Positions 36,981-48,614 of a stretch of DNA of 61,483 bases are shown in pieces. The stretch covers positions 1 through 61,483 of the forward strand of contig VGLJ01000026.1 of the NCBI GenBank assembly GCA_016866775.1. Direction: 5' to 3'. The stretch comes from Candidatus Rokuibacteriota bacterium (GTDB lineage Bacteria > Methylomirabilota > Methylomirabilia > Rokubacteriales > CSP1-6). Each line of letters begins with the position of its first letter. The stretch's first letter is position 1. The notes beneath the pieces are model-generated. The model was not told the origin of the DNA, ran no database searches, and worked only from the letters and a program-made list of their open reading frames with translations. The position numbers and the translations under genes are program-made.

Positions 36981-38005
36981 GAGGGGAGGAGGAGCTCCGC
37001 GATCTGCACGGCGTTGGTCGCCGCTCCCTTCCGCAGCTGGTCGCCGACGACCCAGAAGTTGAGCGCGCGATCGTGCGAGAGGTCCTCGCGGATACGCCCC
37101 ACGAAGCAGTCGTCCTGGCCCTCGACGGCGATCGGCATCGGATAGCGTTGCTGCGCGGGCTCGTCCCAGAGCTTGAGGCCGGGGAAGCGCTCGAACACCT
37201 GCCGCGCCTCGGCCACGGTGACCTTGCGCTCGGTCTCGGCGTTCACCGCGATCGAGTGGCACGTGAACACGGGGACCCGCACCGTGGTGGGGGCCACGCG
37301 GAGCTCCGGCAGCTCCAGGATCTTGCGCAGCTCGTCGACGAGCTTCTTCTCCTCGCCCGTGTAGCCGTCGGGCTGAAAGGCGTCGATCTGCGGCAGCAGG
37401 TTGAACGCGATCTGGTGCGCGAAGTGCCGCGGCGCGACCGCCTCGCCCTTCGCCCACGCCAGGGTCTGCTCGCGCAGCTCGGCGATCCCGTTCACGCCGG
37501 CGCCGGAGACGGCCTGGAAGCTCGTCGCCACCACGCGCGTGAGGCGCCCGGCGTCGTGCAGCGGCTTGAGCGGCATCACGGTGACGATCGTCGTGCAGTT
37601 GGGACAGGAAAGTATTCCGTCGTGACGACGCGCGGCGCCGGGGTTGATCTCGGGGACGACCAACGGGACCTTCGGATCCATCCGGAACGCGTTCGACTTG
37701 TCGACGATCACCGCGCCGTCTTTCCTGATCAGGGGCGCGTACTCCTTCGCCTGCGCCGAGCCCGCCGAGCAGAACGCGATGTCGACGCCCTTGAACGCGC
37801 CCGCCTCGACGCGGCGGATCGGGATCTCGTCGCCCTTGAACGTCACGCTCTTGCCGACGGAGCGCTCGGACGCGAACGCGCGCAGCTCGCGTACCGGGAA
37901 CTTGCGCTCCTCGAGGATCTTCAGCGTGGTCTGCCCCGCCGCGCCCGTCGCGCCGACCACCGCGACCGTGATGCCGTTGGCCACCGGAGCGTCCACGCTC
38001 CGCAT
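36977..38005 (-). CDS. asd: Aspartate-semialdehyde dehydrogenase
   Basis: 342 aa. Reduces aspartyl phosphate to the semialdehyde for Lys, Thr, Met and peptidoglycan synthesis. Seen: VAVVGATGAAGQTTLKILEE (about 14-33, NADP loop), the catalytic cysteine in SCPNCTTIV (about 135-143; the CTT cysteine), QAVSGAGVNGIAEL (about 165-178) and the substrate site near FTCHSIAVNAE (about 250-260). ATG at 38005 shares one base with the leuB stop. Confidence 0.96.
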   Translation of the reverse strand: MRSVDAPVANGITVAVVGATGAAGQTTLKILEERKFPVRELRAFASERSVGKSVTFKGDEIPIRRVEAGAFKGVDIAFCSAGSAQAKEYAPLIRKDGAVIVDKSNAFRMDPKVPLVVPEINPGAARRHDGILSCPNCTTIVTVMPLKPLHDAGRLTRVVATSFQAVSGAGVNGIAELREQTLAWAKGEAVAPRHFAHQIAFNLLPQIDAFQPDGYTGEEKKLVDELRKILELPELRVAPTTVRVPVFTCHSIAVNAETERKVTVAEARQVFERFPGLKLWDEPAQQRYPMPIAVEGQDDCFVGRIREDLSHDRALNFWVVGDQLRKGAATNAVQIAELLLPS

Positions 38006-39090
38006 CAGGCGCTCGCCTCCAGCTCCTTGACGACGAGATCGCCCATCTCGCCGGTCCCGACGACCTTGGCGCCCGAGGCCCCGATGTCGCGCGTGCGATA
38101 CCCCTGCTCGAGCACGCGGAGCACAGCGGCGTCCACGCGGTCGGCGTGCGTGCCGAGGTCGAGCGAGTACTTCAGCAGCATCCCCGCGGAGAGAATCGCG
38201 GCGATGGGGTTGGCGATCCCTTTGCCCGCGATGTCCGGCGCCGTGCCGTGCACGGGTTCGTAGAGGGCGACGGCGCCGCCCAGCGACGCGGACGGCAGCA
38301 TGCCGAGCGAGCCGACGAGGATCGCCGCCTCGTCCGAGAGGATGTCGCCGAACGTGTTCTCCGCCACGATCGTGTCGAAGCGTGTGGGCCGCGCCACCAG
38401 CTCCATCGAGCAGTTGTCGACGAGGATGTGCTCCAGCGTCACGTCGGGATAGTCTTGCGCCACGCGGTTGACGACGTCGCGCCAGAGCTGGGAGACGATC
38501 AGCACGTTCGCCTTGTCGACCGAGGCGAGCTTCTTCTTGCGCTTGCGCGCGACGTCGAAGCCCACGCGCGCGATCCGCTCGATCTCCCGCGAGGTGTATG
38601 CCATCGTGTTGATCGCCCTGGCGCCGCCGTCGGCGAACTTCTCGATCCCCCGCGGCTCGCCGAAGTAGAGGCCGCCGGTGAGCTCGCGGATGACCATCAG
38701 GTCGGTCCCCTCGACCACCGACCGCTTGAGCGGCGACGAGTCGATCAGCATCGGGAACGTCTTCGCCGGGCGCAGGTTCGCGTAGAGATCGAGCTCCTTG
38801 CGAAGGGCGAGCAGCCCGCGCTCCGGCTTCTGCTCCTGCGGCAGCCCGTCCCACTTCGGGCCGCCGACCGAGCCGAACATGATCGCGTCGGCCTTCCGGC
38901 AGAGGTCGAGGCTCTTCGCCGGAAGCGGCTCCCCGGTCGCGTCGACGGCGCAGCCACCCACGAGCGCGTCCTCGAACTCGAGCGCGACGCCGGCCTGGCG
39001 CGCGACGGTCTTCAGCACCTTCACGGCCTCGCCCGTGACTTCGGGCCCGATCCCGTCTCCCGGCAGGACCGCGATCCTGCGCGTGGCCAT
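38005..39090 (-). CDS. leuB: 3-Isopropylmalate dehydrogenase
   Basis: 361 aa. Oxidatively decarboxylates 3-isopropylmalate in leucine synthesis. Seen: LPGDGIGPEVTGEAVKVLK (about 9-27), LRKELDLYANLRPAK (about 97-111), VIRELTGGLYFGEPRG (about 133-148), the metal aspartates in LVDNCSMELV and NTFGDILSDEAA (about 226-252), and YEPVHGTAPDIAGKGIANP (about 272-290). Its start overlaps the leuA stop. leuC and leuD are not between leuA and leuB. Confidence 0.96.
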   Translation of the reverse strand: MATRRIAVLPGDGIGPEVTGEAVKVLKTVARQAGVALEFEDALVGGCAVDATGEPLPAKSLDLCRKADAIMFGSVGGPKWDGLPQEQKPERGLLALRKELDLYANLRPAKTFPMLIDSSPLKRSVVEGTDLMVIRELTGGLYFGEPRGIEKFADGGARAINTMAYTSREIERIARVGFDVARKRKKKLASVDKANVLIVSQLWRDVVNRVAQDYPDVTLEHILVDNCSMELVARPTRFDTIVAENTFGDILSDEAAILVGSLGMLPSASLGGAVALYEPVHGTAPDIAGKGIANPIAAILSAGMLLKYSLDLGTHADRVDAAVLRVLEQGYRTRDIGASGAKVVGTGEMGDLVVKELEASA

Positions 39091-40637
39091 TACGGCCCGA
39101 TCTCCTTCATCCGCTGTCCATTCTGCTGCACGAGACGGTTGATCGCGTTCAAATACGCGCGGGCGCTCGCCTCGATGACGTCGGTCGAGGCGCCCTTGCC
39201 GGCGACGACGGTCCCGTCGAAGTCCACCTTCACCGAGACCTCGCCGATCGCGTCCTTGCCCGAGGTGGCGGCGCGGATCGCATAGTCTTGCAGCCGGCCC
39301 TTCACGCCGGTGATCGCATCGATCGCCGCGAGCACCGCGTCGACCGGGCCGTCGCCGATGCCGGAATCCTGGAACGTCTGGCCCGCGCGCGTGAGCTTCA
39401 CGGTCGCCGACGGCACCACGCCCGTCCCGCTCAGCACGTGCAGGTAGTCCAGCGTGTAGGTCTCGGGCGTCTGCGTGGCCTCGTCGGTGACGATGGCCAC
39501 GAGGTCCTCGTCGAAGACCTCCTTCTTGCGGTCCGCGAGGTCCTTGAACTTCTTGAACGCGCGGTCGATCTCCGCGGGCTGGAGGTCGAAGCCGAGCTCC
39601 TTGAGCCGGCTTCCGAGCGCGGCGCGGCCGGAATGCTTGCCGAGCACGAGCTTGTTCGAGGGCCGCCCGATGTCCTCAGGCTTCATGATCTCGTACGTCG
39701 ACTTGTCCTTGAGGACGCCGTCCTGGTGAATGCCCGCCTCGTGCGCGAACGCGTTCTCGCCCACGATCGCCTTGTTGGGCTGCACGTGGATGCCGGTGAT
39801 GTGCGAGAGCAGCCGCGACGTGCGGAAGAGCTCCTCGGTCTTCACGCCGGTGTCCACGCCGAAGAAGTCCTTGCGCGTGCGGAGCGCCATCACGATCTCT
39901 TCGAGCGAGGCGTTGCCCGCGCGCTCGCCGATGCCGTTGATCGTGCACTCGATCTGGCGGGCGCCGTTCATCACGCCCGTGACCGAGTTCGCGACGGCCT
40001 GGCCGAGATCGTTGTGGCAGTGCACCGAGAGGACGTACCGGCCCTCGTGCCGCTTCAGGCGCTCGCGGATGTTCGCGATGCGCTGGCCCCACTCCTGCGG
40101 AATCGCATACCCCACGGTGTCGGGGATGTTGATCGTGCGGGCGCCGGCGGTGATCACCGCGTCCAGCACGTCGCACATGTAGTCGAAGTCCGTGCGCGAG
40201 GCGTCCTCGGGCGAGAACTCGACGTCCTCGCAGTACGCGCGCGCGTGCTTCACCGCCTCTTCCGCGGCCTTCAGGATCTCCGCGCGCGACTTGCGCAGCT
40301 TGTACTTGAGGTGGATGTCCGAGGTCGCGACGAACGTGTGGATGCGCGGCTTCGTGGCGTACTTCACCGCCTCCCAGCACCGGTCGATGTCCCCGAGCCC
40401 GACGCGTGAGAGCCCGCAGATCGCCGGCGCGCCGTCGAGCGTGCCGACCTGCCGCGCCACCTCCCGCGTGGCCTCGAAGTCCTCGTCGGAGGAGATCGGG
40501 AAGCCTGCCTCGATGACGTCCACGCGCAGGCGCGCCAGCTGCCGGGCCATCTCCAGTTTCTCCATGGCGTTCATGGAAAAGCCCGGCGACTGCTCGCCAT
40601 CGCGCAACGTCGTGTCGAAGATGATGACCCGATCCAT
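39090..40637 (-). CDS. leuA: 2-Isopropylmalate synthase
   Basis: 515 aa. Condenses acetyl-CoA with 2-oxoisovalerate, first step of leucine synthesis. The N-terminal TIM barrel shows FDTTLRDGEQSPGFSM (about 7-22; Arg and Asp of the active site), the metal histidines in SVHCHNDLGQAVANS (about 199-213) and the GIGERAGNASLEEIVM loop (about 234-249). The C-terminal LeuA regulatory domain (about 385-510, DYLHVLSGTGVVPSATVKL) is present, so leucine feedback is likely. AGGAGG-like site 8 bases before the ATG. Confidence 0.96.
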   Translation of the reverse strand: MDRVIIFDTTLRDGEQSPGFSMNAMEKLEMARQLARLRVDVIEAGFPISSDEDFEATREVARQVGTLDGAPAICGLSRVGLGDIDRCWEAVKYATKPRIHTFVATSDIHLKYKLRKSRAEILKAAEEAVKHARAYCEDVEFSPEDASRTDFDYMCDVLDAVITAGARTINIPDTVGYAIPQEWGQRIANIRERLKRHEGRYVLSVHCHNDLGQAVANSVTGVMNGARQIECTINGIGERAGNASLEEIVMALRTRKDFFGVDTGVKTEELFRTSRLLSHITGIHVQPNKAIVGENAFAHEAGIHQDGVLKDKSTYEIMKPEDIGRPSNKLVLGKHSGRAALGSRLKELGFDLQPAEIDRAFKKFKDLADRKKEVFDEDLVAIVTDEATQTPETYTLDYLHVLSGTGVVPSATVKLTRAGQTFQDSGIGDGPVDAVLAAIDAITGVKGRLQDYAIRAATSGKDAIGEVSVKVDFDGTVVAGKGASTDVIEASARAYLNAINRLVQQNGQRMKEIGP

Positions 40638-42077: not shown

Positions 42078-43082
42078 CTACTCGCGCGGCGGCTGGATCC
42101 AGGACATCATCGCGCGGAGCCGCTTGCCGACCTCCTCGATCTGGTGATCGGCGTCCTTGCGGCGCATCGCGAGGAACCCGGCGCGGTTCGCCTGGTTCTC
42201 CAGCACCCACTCGCGCGCGAACTGCCCCGACTGGATCTCGGCGAGGATCTTCTTCATCTCCTGCTTCGTCGCCTCCGGCACCACGCGCGGGCCGCGCGAG
42301 TAGTCGCCGTACTCCGCGGTGTCGGAGACCGAGTGGCGCATGTACGCGAGACCGCCCTGGTAGAAGAGGTCGACGATCAGCTTCATCTCGTGCATGCACT
42401 CGAAGTACGCGACCTCGGGCTGGTAGCCGGCCTCGACCAGCGTCTCGAACGCCGCCTTGATGAGGTGCGAGATACCGCCGCAGAGCGTGGTCTGCTCGCC
42501 GAAGAGATCGGTCTCCGTCTCTTCCTTGAACGTGGTCTCGATCACGCCGGCGCGCGTGCAGCCGACACCCTTGCCGTACGCGAGGGCGACGTCACGGGCC
42601 TTGCCGGTGACGTCCTGGTAGACGGCGACGAGCGCGGGGACGCCGGGCCCCTGGGTGAAGAGGTCGCGCATGATGTGGCCCGGGGCTTTGGGTGCAATCA
42701 TCGTGACGTCGATATCCGGCGGGGGCACGACCTGGTTGAAGTGGATGTTGAAGCCGTGGGCGAACATCAGCATCTTGCCCTTGCCGAGCCCCTGCTTGAT
42801 CTCGGCCTCGAAGACCTGCCGCTGGCTCTGGTCGGGCAGGAGGATCATCACCACTTCCGACATCTTCGCGGCGTCCGCCACCGGCGCGACCTTCAGGCCT
42901 TCCTTCTCGGCGCGCGCCCAGCTCTTCGAGCCCTTGTAGAGGCCGACGACGACGTCCTGGCCGGAGTCCTTGAGGTTCAGCGCGTGCGCGTGGCCCTGGC
43001 TGCCATAGCCGATGACGGCCACTTTCTTGCCCTTCAAGAGGCCGAGGTCCGCGTCCTGGTCGTAATAGATCTTCGCTGGCAT
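42078..43082 (-). CDS. ilvC: Ketol-acid reductoisomerase, class I
   Basis: 334 aa. Isomerises and reduces acetolactate or acetohydroxybutyrate with NAD(P)H. Seen: [19 protein letters not shown] (about 22-40), [14 protein letters not shown] (about 107-120), [13 protein letters not shown] (about 127-139), and the metal/active-site residues in [11 protein letters not shown] and [13 protein letters not shown] (about 190-232). ATG at 43082 is chosen over one 18 codons upstream because it gives the standard M-P-A-K-I-Y-Y N-terminus. Confidence 0.96.
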
Positions 43083-43104
43083 CCTACAGTCTTCCTTTCT
43101 TTCC

Positions 43105-43698
43105 CTAATCTGCGAAGCCGACCACACGCGGATCATCCACGGGGCGCGGCCGCTTGGGCTGTTCGACCTTGCGCGCGGCCTTCGTCTTCGGCCCGCGCGT
43201 GATGGCGACCTTTCCGGTCCGGACGATCTCCTGGATGCCCATCGGGCGGAGCAGCTCGATGAGCGCTTCGATCTTGCCCTCGTCGCCGGTGGCCTCGAGG
43301 ATGAAGGAGATCGGCGTGACGTCGACGACCTTCGCGCGGAAGATGTCGACCGTCCGCAAGATCTCCGCGCGGTGCTGCGGCTCGGCGTTCACGCGGATGA
43401 GCACGAGCTCGCGCTCGACGTGGCGGTCGTCCGTGAGGTCGCTCACCTTGATGACGTCGATCAGCTTGTGGAGCTGCTTCGTCACCTGCTCGATGATGAA
43501 CTCGTCGCCGGTCACGACCAGCGTCATCCGCGAGACCGCGGGGTCGAGCGTCTCGCCGACCGAGAGGCTCTCGATGTTGTAGCCGCGCGCGGAGAAGAGG
43601 CCCGCCACGCGCGACAGCACGCCGAAGCGGTTCTCCACGAGGACCGAGATCGTGTGCTTGCGCGGCTCGCCGCTTCCGCTGCCGTTGCTCGTGCTCAT
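43105..43698 (-). CDS. ilvN: Acetolactate synthase regulatory (small) subunit
   Basis: 197 aa. N-terminal ACT domain ([20 protein letters not shown], about 15-34; [12 protein letters not shown], about 39-50) binds valine for feedback, and the C-terminal ACT-like half ([17 protein letters not shown], about 121-137) contacts the large subunit. Extended basic tail (about 165-197, [16 protein letters not shown]) is unusual. Separated from ilvB by a two-hairpin repeat. Confidence 0.94.
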
Positions 43699-43773: not shown

Positions 43774-45534
<1,761 letters not shown>

Positions 45535-45555: not shown

Positions 45556-48255
45556 TTAGCCATGCGACATCGCGTCCCGTTCCTTGATCCGGGCCTGCGC
45601 GGCCGCGAGGCGCGCGATCGGGATCATGAACGGCGAGCACGACACGTACGTCATCCCCACGCGATGACAGAACTCCACCGACGACGGCTCGCCGCCGTGC
45701 TCGCCGCAGATCCCCACCTTGAGCTCCGGCCGCGTGCGGCGGCCGCGCTCGATGCCGATCCTCACGAGCTCGCCCACGCCTTCCTGGTCGAGCACCGAGA
45801 ACGGATCGGCGGGCAGCAGACTCTTCTGCAGGTAGTCCGGCAGGAACTTCGCCACGTCGTCGCGGCTGTAGCCGAACGTCATCTGGGTGAGGTCGTTGGT
45901 CCCGAACGAGAAGAACTCCGCGTGCTCGGCGATCTGGTTGGCGATCAGCGAGGCGCGCGGCACCTCGATCATCGTGCCCACCGCGTACTTCACGGGCACG
46001 CCGGTCTCCGCCACCACGCCGTCGGCGATGCGCTTGGTCTTGTCGTACGTGAGCCGCATCTCGCCGATCGTGCCCGTGAGCGGGATCATGATCTCGGGCT
46101 CGACGCGCCCGCCCTGGTCGGCGACCGTGCACGCCGCCTCCATGATCGCGCGCACCTGCATGCCGTAGATCTCGGGGTGCGTGATCCCGAGGCGGCAGCC
46201 GCGGTGGCCGAGCATGGGATTCGCCTCGCGCAGCTTCTCGACGGTCGCGATCAGCGCGTCGAGCCGCGGGCGCCGGGCGGCGTCGATCCCGAGCGCGTCC
46301 ATGCGCGCGCGCTCCTCGACCAGCTCCGTGTACTCCTTCCAGTTCGGCAGGAACTCGTGGAGCGGCGGGTCGAGCAGGCGGACCGTCACGGGCAGCCCGT
46401 CCATCGCCCGGAAGATCCCGATGAAGTCCTCGCGCTGGAACGGCAGCAGCTTCGCGACCGCCGCGCGGCGCGCGGCGTGATCCGGCGCCATGATCATCTC
46501 GCGCACGATCGCGATGCGCTCGGGCGCGAAGAACATGTGCTCGGTGCGCACGAGGCCGATGCCCTCGGCGCCGAACTCGCGCGCCTTCGCGGCGTCGTGC
46601 GGCGTGTCCGCGTTGGCGCGCACCCCGAGCGAGCGGCGCTGGTCCGCCCACGCGAGGAACTCCTTGAAGGCGCCGCTCAGCTCGGGCTGGACCGTCTCGA
46701 TCGCGTCGCGCAGCACCTCCCCGGTGCTGCCGTCGAGCGAGACCATCTCGCCCTCGCGCACGATCACCCCGTGCGCCTCGCACTGCCGCCGCTCCTCGTC
46801 CACCACCACGTCGTGCGCGCCGACCACGCACGGCTTGCCCATGCCGACGGCGACCACCGCGGCGTGCGACGTGCGGCCGCCGCGCGCCGTGAGGATACCT
46901 TCCGAGGCGTACATGCCCGCGATGTCCTCCGGCGACGTCTCGGGGCGGACGAGGATGACCTTGTGGCCGGCCTTCGCGCGCTCGACCGCGGTGTCCGCGT
47001 CGAACACCACCTGCCCCACGGCCGCGCCCGGCGCCGCGGGAAGCCCCTGCGCGAGCAGGCGGCTCTGCGCGATCGCGCGGGCCTTCTGCGTGTCGTCGAA
47101 GCGCGGGTGCAGGACCTTGTTGAGGTCGGCCGGACGCACGCGCAGCAGCGCGGTGTCGCGGTCGATCACGTGCTCGTGGACGAGATCCACGGCCACGCGC
47201 ACCGCGGCCTCGGCCGAGCGCTTGCCCGCGCGCGTCTGCAGGAGATAGAGCGTGCCTTCCTGCACCGTGAACTCGATGTCCTGCATGTCCTTGTAGTGGC
47301 GCTCGAGGCGGTCGGCGATCGTCACCAGCTCGTCGTACGCGGCGGGCATGCGCGCGTGGAGCCCGTCGATCCCCTCGGGCGTGCGGATGCCGGCGACCAC
47401 GTCCTCGCCCTGCGCGTTCGCGAGGAACTCGGCGTAGAACCGCGGCTCCCCGGTCCGCGGGTCGCGGGTGAAGCCGACGCCCGTGCCCGACGTCTCGCCG
47501 AGGTTGCCGAACACCATCGCCATCACGGTGACGGCGGTGCCCCAGTCGCCGGGAACGCCGTGGATGCGCCGGTACTCGATGGCCTTCTTCACGAACCACG
47601 AGTCGAACACCGCGCGCACCGCGAGCTCGAGTTGCCGCTCGGGCTCCTGCGGGAACGGCGCGCCGGTGCGCTCCTGCACCAGGTCCTTGAACGTCTGAAC
47701 CAGTTTTCGCAGCTCGATGGCGGGGATCTCGGGATCGGTCTTCACGCCGAGGCGCGCCTTCATCGCCTCGAGGTGCTCGTCGAACGCCTCGCGCTTGATG
47801 TGCAGCACGACGTTGGCGAACATCGTGATGAAGCGGCGGTAGCAGTCGAGCGCGAACCGCTCGTTGCGCGTCCACGCCGCGAGGCCTTCCACCGTCGCGT
47901 CGTTGAGGCCGAGGTTGAGGACGGTCTCCATCATCCCGGGCATCGAGACCCGGGCGCCGGAGCGAACGGAGACGAGCAGCGGCCGCTTGGTGTCGCCGAA
48001 CGTGAGACCCGCCGCGCTCTCGAGCTTCTCGAGGTTCTCGAGCGCCTGGTCCCAGAGCCCGTCGGGAAGCCGGCGATCCTGCCGCGTGTACTCCGCCCAC
48101 GCTTCGGTGGTGATCGTGAAGCCCGGCGGCACCGGGATGCCGAGGTTCGTCATCTCGGCGAGCTCGCAGCCCTTGCCCCCGAGGAGGTTGCGCATGAGGG
48201 AGGAGCCTTCCGCCTTGCCGCCACCGAAGAAGTAGACGAGTTTCGCTGTGGGCAT
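45556..48255 (-). CDS. ppdK: Pyruvate, phosphate dikinase
   Basis: 899 aa. Interconverts pyruvate + ATP + Pi and PEP + AMP + PPi. N-terminal ATP-grasp domain (GGKGCELAEMTNLGIPVPPG, about 26-45; SVRSGARVSMPGMMETVLNL, about 95-114), the phosphohistidine domain with GGRTSHAAVVAVGMGKPCVV (about 464-483; the His carries phosphate), and the PEP/pyruvate barrel ending in the catalytic cysteine (YVSCSPFMIPIARL, about 870). ATG at 48255 is used with GGAG 4 bases before; the open frame upstream is not coding. As first gene of the ilv-leu run it may set the pyruvate supply. Confidence 0.96.
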   Translation of the reverse strand: MPTAKLVYFFGGGKAEGSSLMRNLLGGKGCELAEMTNLGIPVPPGFTITTEAWAEYTRQDRRLPDGLWDQALENLEKLESAAGLTFGDTKRPLLVSVRSGARVSMPGMMETVLNLGLNDATVEGLAAWTRNERFALDCYRRFITMFANVVLHIKREAFDEHLEAMKARLGVKTDPEIPAIELRKLVQTFKDLVQERTGAPFPQEPERQLELAVRAVFDSWFVKKAIEYRRIHGVPGDWGTAVTVMAMVFGNLGETSGTGVGFTRDPRTGEPRFYAEFLANAQGEDVVAGIRTPEGIDGLHARMPAAYDELVTIADRLERHYKDMQDIEFTVQEGTLYLLQTRAGKRSAEAAVRVAVDLVHEHVIDRDTALLRVRPADLNKVLHPRFDDTQKARAIAQSRLLAQGLPAAPGAAVGQVVFDADTAVERAKAGHKVILVRPETSPEDIAGMYASEGILTARGGRTSHAAVVAVGMGKPCVVGAHDVVVDEERRQCEAHGVIVREGEMVSLDGSTGEVLRDAIETVQPELSGAFKEFLAWADQRRSLGVRANADTPHDAAKAREFGAEGIGLVRTEHMFFAPERIAIVREMIMAPDHAARRAAVAKLLPFQREDFIGIFRAMDGLPVTVRLLDPPLHEFLPNWKEYTELVEERARMDALGIDAARRPRLDALIATVEKLREANPMLGHRGCRLGITHPEIYGMQVRAIMEAACTVADQGGRVEPEIMIPLTGTIGEMRLTYDKTKRIADGVVAETGVPVKYAVGTMIEVPRASLIANQIAEHAEFFSFGTNDLTQMTFGYSRDDVAKFLPDYLQKSLLPADPFSVLDQEGVGELVRIGIERGRRTRPELKVGICGEHGGEPSSVEFCHRVGMTYVSCSPFMIPIARLAAAQARIKERDAMSHG

Positions 48256-48290: not shown

Positions 48291-48320
48291 ATCCTACAGG
48301 ATGGCCCACACCCCCGTCAA
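48291..48320 (-). promoter_or_regulatory. Sigma70-like promoter directly upstream of ppdK
   Basis: TTGACG (48320-48315), 18-base spacer, TAGGAT (48296-48291). Predicted start near 48284, 5' UTR about 29 bases. This would let the ppdK-ilv-leu run be transcribed without passing through the terminator at 48397-48432. Confidence 0.6.
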
Positions 48321-48396: not shown

Positions 48397-48432
48397 AAGA
48401 AAACAAAAGGCCACGGATCGCCACCCGTGGCC
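48397..48432 (-). terminator. Intrinsic terminator after the Leu-rich small ORF
   Basis: Stem GGCCACGG/CCGTGGCC (48432-48425 with 48416-48409), 8-base loop, then TTTTGTTTTCTT (48408-48397). This is the clearest rho-independent terminator in the window. Its 5' arm can instead pair with the 3' arm of the hairpin just upstream. Confidence 0.85.
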
Positions 48433-48450
48433 TCAACTACTCCGTCGATC

Positions 48451-48478
48451 GCCACGGGCCGGTCATCCTGCCCGTGGC
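48451..48478 (-). other. Hairpin preceding the terminator, able to form an alternative pairing
   Basis: GCCACGGGC pairs perfectly with GCCCGTGGC (9 bp, 10-base loop). The 3' arm can also pair with GCCACGGGT in the terminator 5' arm, so three exclusive folds are possible (1:2, 2:3, 3:4), as in attenuators. Confidence 0.7.
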
Positions 48479-48491
48479 ATCCGGCTAGCGC

Positions 48492-48575
48492 TTAGCTCGC
48501 GGATGCTCCGGGCAGGCCCGGCAGCGCCAGGAGAATCAGTCCCAGCGACAGCAGCCGCGAATCGGTGCGCTTCAT
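48492..48575 (-). CDS. Leu-rich 27-aa small ORF (leader-peptide or signal-peptide-like)
   Basis: ATG at 48575, TAA at 48494-48492. Eight of 27 residues are Leu (positions 8, 9, 11, 13, 15, 16, 18, 21), coded mostly by CTG; the start is M-K-R-T-D-S-R and the end G-A-S-A-S. It has its own promoter, whose predicted start is only a few bases before the ATG, so the message would be leaderless. Two hairpins and an intrinsic terminator follow. Either a leucine-sensing attenuator leader ahead of ppdK-ilvBNC-leuAB, or a separate small transcript coding for a hydrophobic peptide. Confidence 0.5.
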   Translation of the reverse strand: MKRTDSRLLSLGLILLALPGLPGASAS

Positions 48576-48584
48576 AGGCTTGTG

Positions 48585-48614
48585 ACTATACGCGGGCGCT
48601 TCGGCGGGGGTCAA
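48585..48614 (-). promoter_or_regulatory. Sigma70-like promoter of the small ORF
   Basis: TTGACC (48614-48609), 18-base spacer, TATAGT (48590-48585). Only one mismatch in each box, the best match in the window. It lies just after the gntR stop (48626). Confidence 0.75.

Follow-up and report, generated by a model that had tools for sequence, protein, structure and literature searches.

A probable ribosome-mediated transcription attenuator with a leucine-rich leader ORF upstream of ppdK-ilvBNC-leuAB in Rokubacteria

A compact minus-strand element at positions 48614 to 48397 lies upstream of the leucine biosynthesis genes of a soil bacterium, within the 61,483-nucleotide stretch of DNA analyzed here (the window). 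The element raises the question of how a promoter, a short leucine-rich open reading frame (ORF), and a series of hairpins that end in a terminator might act together, and the original prediction, made from the sequence of the window, offered three options: a transcription attenuator, a free small RNA, and a gene for a small hydrophobic peptide. Here we argue that the element is very likely a ribosome-mediated transcription attenuator that senses charged leucine tRNA, perhaps with isoleucine or valine tRNA too, and controls ppdK-ilvBNC-leuAB transcription originating from promoter P1. Strict leucine specificity is proposed with less confidence than the class of mechanism.

Table 1. Positions of the leader element, its segments, and neighboring genes in the window
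Feature	Position	Strand	Evidence
Promoter P1, TTGACC-N18-TATAGT	48585..48614	-	Promoter scan; boxes near-universal in aligned relatives
Leader ORF, 27 codons plus TAA, 8 Leu	48492..48575	-	Intact in 35 genomes
Putative control codons, Leu 8 to 18 and one Ile (offsets -20 to -10 relative to the stop codon)	48522..48554	-	Leu enrichment at -19 to -10, 35 leaders
Segment Z (CCGGG), possible local pairing with part of A	48517..48521	-	94.3% paired, two double-change pairs; weak
Segment A (CCTGCCCGGAGCATCCG), codons 20 to 26, pairs with B	48500..48516	-	Conservation, double changes, duplex energy
Segment B (CGGATGCCACGGGCAGG), arm 1, partner A or C	48467..48483	-	Conserved pairing
Segment C (GCCCGTGGC), arm 2, partner B or D	48451..48459	-	B:C paired in 100% and C:D in 99.4% of cells, with little variation
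Segment D (GGCCACGGGT), arm 3, partner C (antiterminator) or E (terminator)	48423..48432	-	Conserved pairing
Segment E (ATCCGTGGCC) and T-run, 3' half of intrinsic terminator	48399..48418	-	Scan; 98.6% paired
Promoter P2 of ppdK, TTGACG-N18-TAGGAT	48291..48320	-	Scan; kept in 24/26 aligned loci
ppdK, first operon gene	45556..48255	-	Pfam PPDK_N, PEP-utilizers
ilvB, acetolactate synthase large subunit	43774..45534	-	TPP enzyme domains
ilvN, acetolactate synthase small subunit	43105..43698	-	Pfam ALS_ss_C
ilvC, ketol-acid reductoisomerase	42078..43136	-	Pfam KARI_N, KARI_C
leuA, 2-isopropylmalate synthase	39090..40637	-	Pfam HMGL-like, LeuA_dimer
leuB, 3-isopropylmalate dehydrogenase	38005..39090	-	Pfam Iso_dh

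When 60 genomes were searched at the DNA level, many members of the same family proved to carry the unit. Alignments were built from 26 and later from 35 genomes in 18 genera, the latter comprising the window and 34 relatives, and the ORF, all helices, and ppdK-ilvB-ilvN-ilvC-leuA-leuB were conserved in these 35. The minus-strand gene order downstream of the element is ppdK, ilvB, ilvN, ilvC, psd, pssA, leuA, leuB, and asd (Pfam support for all except asd), and these genes are presumably co-transcribed. Synteny from gntR through the element to ppdK-ilvB-ilvN-ilvC-psd-pssA-leuA-leuB was kept as far as each contig extended. Many relatives (e.g., L117 and L123) carry an additional, dapA-like gene of ~0.9 kb that separates ppdK from ilvB and is absent from the window. 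The leader is not universal in the family, as seven ppdK-ilvB genomes from five genera had no such leader at ppdK; no ppdK was found in G007, G019, and G030, which were hence left out of that judgment. At L255, L256, L257, L258, and L259 (genera g3, g9, and g19), the leader is replaced by a promoter, a short hairpin (e.g., GCAGGCCC..GGGCCTG), and a T-rich stretch before ppdK, possibly another form of control.

Promoter scanning indicated two promoter-like sites, the better of which was P1 (shuffled sequences yielded 0.1). An 18-nt spacer separates its -35 box, TTGACC (48614-48609), from its -10 box, TATAGT (48590-48585), and nearly all aligned relatives carry TTGAC and a TATA-type -10 box. The ORF starts with the ATG at 48575, ends with the TAA at 48494-48492, and encodes the peptide MKRTDSRLLSLGLILLALPGLPGASAS. 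Because the ATG lies only 9 nt past the -10 box, RNA from the predicted start at P1 is probably leaderless; in relatives, at loci where the scripted choice of start was in register, the ATG lies 7 to 10 nt past that box. Insertions and deletions within the ORF were multiples of three across the aligned relatives. The original description of a TTGACC-N18-TATAGT promoter, a 27-codon ORF with eight leucine codons, and a position upstream of ppdK-ilvBNC-leuAB was borne out by the scan and the relatives, by a reading frame intact in 35 genomes, and by Pfam domains and synteny, respectively.

Leucine codons in the window fall at offsets -20, -19, -17, -15, -13, -12, -10, and -7 from the stop codon, and leucine occupies offsets -19, -17, -15, -13, -12, and -10 in 66 to 94% of the 35 aligned leaders. 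Thus, like an attenuator leader, the element has a short ORF rich in the cognate codon (8 of 27), with a coding signature and with leuA and leuB downstream. Codons in the upstream part of the ORF vary synonymously (Gly GGC/GGA/GGG/GGT and Val GTG/GTA), as expected of a translated ORF. The tail codons, which form segment A, are near-fixed even at synonymous sites (GGA in 33 of 35 and GCA in 32 of 35), as expected of RNA pairing.

The hairpins were found largely as the original prediction had drawn them. Hairpin 1:2 has the predicted 9 bp (48478-48470 with 48459-48451), and arm 2 pairs with arm 3 over 9 bp (8 to 9 bp claimed), such that the folds are mutually exclusive. Terminator 3:4 (48432-48423 with 48418-48409) is present as well, although its stem, taken to be 8 bp, has 10 bp in the conserved register and 12 bp by scan. 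Beyond arm 4 (segment E, 48418-48409), the T-run continues to 48399; an intrinsic terminator with a T-run therefore precedes the first gene. In a further pairing, A:B, 15 bp interrupted by a 2x2 internal loop join the ORF tail to arm 1, downstream of the stop codon. It had been objected that arm 1 begins 14 nt past the stop codon, where a ribosome stalled on leucine codons would not cover it directly; since the tail of the ORF is its pairing partner, ribosome position would control arm 1, and the objection falls. Each step excludes the next, as neighboring helices compete for one segment (B for A:B against B:C, C for B:C against C:D, and D for C:D against D:E), and this exclusion is conserved. 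The window leader had a fold z-score of -4.3, with none of 200 shuffles equally stable. A local hairpin, Z:A, was set aside, as its conservation is moderate (94%) and the model works without it.

Among the 35 sequences, 98.9% of alignment cells were paired in A:B, 100% in B:C, 99.4% in C:D, and 98.6% in D:E, compared with 30 to 48% in a slid-register control. Four A:B pairs were altered on both sides; at columns 81/137, for example, the pair passes from UA through UG to CG, and the CG form turns a leucine of the peptide into proline. The A:B duplex averaged -31.1 kcal/mol versus -19.7 for shuffled ORFs, and 3 of 7,000 shuffles were as strong. Conservation of the leucine codons and covariation of the pairings had been proposed as marks of attenuation: the codons and the pairings are conserved, and covariation lies mostly in A:B, which it mainly supports since B:C and C:D of the leucine set are almost invariant. 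Loss of the ORF and the pairings from relatives had been named as evidence to the contrary, and both are kept in all 34.

The ORF, the helices, their exclusion, the synteny, and the match of codons to pathway come from sequence and comparison, and from them we infer coupling of translation to transcription and a response to leucine, which would operate as follows. Polymerase would initiate at P1, and a ribosome would start on the leaderless 27-codon ORF. In the chain A:B, B:C, C:D, and D:E, formation of A:B and C:D would give read-through, and formation of B:C and D:E would give termination. When leucine is ample, the ribosome would reach the vicinity of the stop codon and cover A, B:C would form, D would remain available to E, and transcription would stop at 48399-48408. 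When leucine is scarce, the ribosome would stall on leucine codons and leave A free, A:B and C:D would form, and polymerase would enter ppdK with no terminator in its path. Ribosome-masked folding was computed at equilibrium and 37°C for 35 and 32 leaders, with two assumed footprints and a transcript that ended ahead of E. A ribosome stalled at offsets -19 to -12 gave P(C:D) of 0.88 to 0.96, and by -10 P(B:C) exceeded P(C:D). The predicted switch point was about offset -11, with leucine codons at -19 to -10. Placing the stop codon in the A site under the smaller footprint left P(C:D) slightly higher than P(B:C) (0.46 and 0.38). Ribosome-free RNA was predicted to favor A:B, with P(C:D) of 0.68.

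An attenuator that responds not to leucine as such but to translation in general or to several branched-chain amino acids would refine the same mechanism, and its probability thus overlaps that of the leucine reading. We regard this version as rather unlikely but with an appreciable chance of being right, as isoleucine occupies one conserved position in most relatives, valine appears near the start, the operon also makes valine and isoleucine precursors, and folding of the free RNA predicts read-through. Against it, leucine accounts for 27% of the leader peptide and is by far the commonest residue, whereas isoleucine and valine each occur mainly at a single position.

A covariance model of the B-to-E part was built from 28 sequences, two of which precede DAHP synthase genes. 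Its two strong matches in the genome of the window were the window itself and C78:18627-18709 (E value, 1.7e-14). The weaker matches that were inspected resembled either coding sequence or terminators, one of the latter following a 5S-like sequence, and were rejected. The second leader (L140, G000:C78:18627-18709) encodes MTRPASAHASFGFFYFAEVCSRL and precedes a gene which, from its sequence (e.g., VMAGPCSVES), we take to encode DAHP synthase. The arrangement is shared by 40 aligned relatives (41 leaders), most of whose peptides are rich in phenylalanine and tyrosine (e.g., MGTPWRGFGFFFYYFAGVCPGALT), and the Phe/Tyr codons, at offsets -16 to -10, match the positions of leucine codons in the leucine leaders. 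Two candidates were removed from this aro set, L222 as a false match and L190 as a leucine leader. Pairing in the aro set was 99.2% for the 9-bp part and 89% for the 4-bp part of A:B, 99.5% for B:C, and 99.7% each for C:D and D:E; here B:C covaries (12 GC-to-AU cells). Masked folding predicted the same switch curve as for the leucine leaders. The leucine and Phe/Tyr leaders presumably share ancestry. We consider attenuation to be argued most strongly by the agreement, in two leaders, between control codons and the pathway downstream. Among the three options originally offered, the attenuator is thus supported by ORF conservation, covariation, synteny, and a second, Phe/Tyr leader.

Between the terminator and ppdK, the P2 pattern TTGAC-N18-TANNNT was present in 24 of 26 aligned loci; the other two, L013 and L015, had no recognizable P2 in that interval. 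An original reservation, that ppdK has its own promoter, therefore stands at 24 loci and fails at two. Because P2 is conserved, the attenuator cannot control all ppdK transcription. Instead, P1 and the attenuator would add a leucine-responsive share to transcription from P2, which would bypass the attenuator, and L013 and L015 suggest that read-through matters. Around P2 (48320-48270), most relatives keep ATCC ahead of the -10 box and AAAGACTTTTTC behind it, a possible operator. The sequence at 48363-48330, GGGCGTGGCGAAGCCCGGGGGCCCGGAC, belongs to a dispersed repeat that occurs many times in relatives (e.g., G011 and G029) and is regarded as unrelated to the leader.

Conservation of P2 is also what one might see if P1 produced a free ~180-nt small RNA that acts in trans from its own terminator-bounded unit while ppdK was driven only by P2. 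The unit is complete from promoter to terminator, and terminated trpL RNA of Sinorhizobium meliloti provides a precedent for action in trans (PMC7298713). We nevertheless consider a free small RNA improbable, given a conserved ORF with synonymous variation, leucine codons at the predicted switch point, a fixed position before a leucine-producing operon, the two loci lacking a recognizable P2, and a sister leader whose DAHP synthase gene begins, in several relatives, 10 to 30 nt past the terminator. As a by-product of attenuation, or with a second function, a free RNA may nonetheless exist. Least credible of all is the reading in which the ORF encodes a small hydrophobic or signal-like peptide and the hairpins serve only as its terminator: MKR...LLSLGLILLALPGLPGASA does look like a signal sequence ending in A-S-A, but the hydrophobic stretch contains charged residues in several relatives (e.g., RVLSREMTLLALPG and RVLTLELRLLALPG), tail codons are near-fixed at synonymous sites, Leu-to-Pro change is tolerated where B compensates, the sister leader has Phe/Tyr in place of leucine, and B:C, A:B, and C:D would be left unexplained.

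The attenuator reading can be set beside known leaders. The trp, his, leu, and ilvGMEDA leaders of Escherichia coli are classical ribosome-mediated attenuators, and leaders of this type terminate when untranslated. Because the free RNA favors A:B, an untranslated leader is here predicted to read through, the opposite outcome. Five chained segments, an ORF-tail pairing that leads to the antiterminator, and the probable lack of a 5' leader also separate the present element from the E. coli leaders. Shared with the E. coli attenuators are a cognate-codon-rich ORF, exclusive hairpins, a terminator before a biosynthetic operon, and ribosome position as the sensor; the general ribosome-mediated model is described in PMC1183508 and PMC11857589.

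The nearest described case, compared by text alone, is the ilvBNC leader of Corynebacterium glutamicum (ilvB-II motif), in which a leaderless upstream ORF (uORF) rich in branched-chain codons encodes a 15-amino-acid peptide and is followed by a terminator and antiterminator and by further promoters downstream (PMC11857589 and PMC10272879). Those features are shared, whereas the hairpins differ, the ORF has 27 codons rather than encoding 15 residues, and loss of the start codon, which cut C. glutamicum expression by 80%, is predicted here to have the opposite effect. Attenuators built on a uORF have also been proposed for the ilvB-OMG and Leptospira ilvB motifs, which precede ilvB (PMC10272879); compared by description only, these motifs share the uORF-attenuator idea. 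In S. meliloti, trpL (rnTrpL/peTrpL) is likewise a leaderless attenuator ORF that releases a terminated RNA but is Trp specific, encodes 14 amino acids, and has reported trans functions (PMC7298713). Rfam release 15 gave no match at the gathering threshold in the window or in four related loci, the best subthreshold score in the window being 25.8 bits for asX1 against a threshold of 70, in line with the original remark that the element resembled no family known to its author. Searches of the open-access literature, with few subscription journals, found nothing on Rokubacteria riboswitches or Methylomirabilota transcription attenuation. The mechanism is thus a familiar one for which no description was found in this phylum.

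Seven Val-rich leaders of similar layout (L265, L266, L267, L268, L269, L270, and L271) were observed in other families of the class, before genes that we take, by eye, to encode a regulator together with crotonyl-CoA carboxylase/reductase, a malate synthase, or a putative hydro-lyase. We tentatively raise the idea, itself doubtful, of a class-wide attenuator scaffold in which the hairpin chain is kept, control codons are swapped (Leu, Phe/Tyr, or Val), untranslated RNA reads through by default, and Val versions precede genes other than those of amino acid biosynthesis, such as crotonyl-CoA carboxylase/reductase and malate synthase. For Rokubacteria, the leader described here offers a concrete and testable mechanism of gene control. 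The presence in one genome of two leaders that share a design but differ in control codons suggests that the switch may be re-aimed by a few codon changes, and the control codons would predict the amino acid sensed by each operon.
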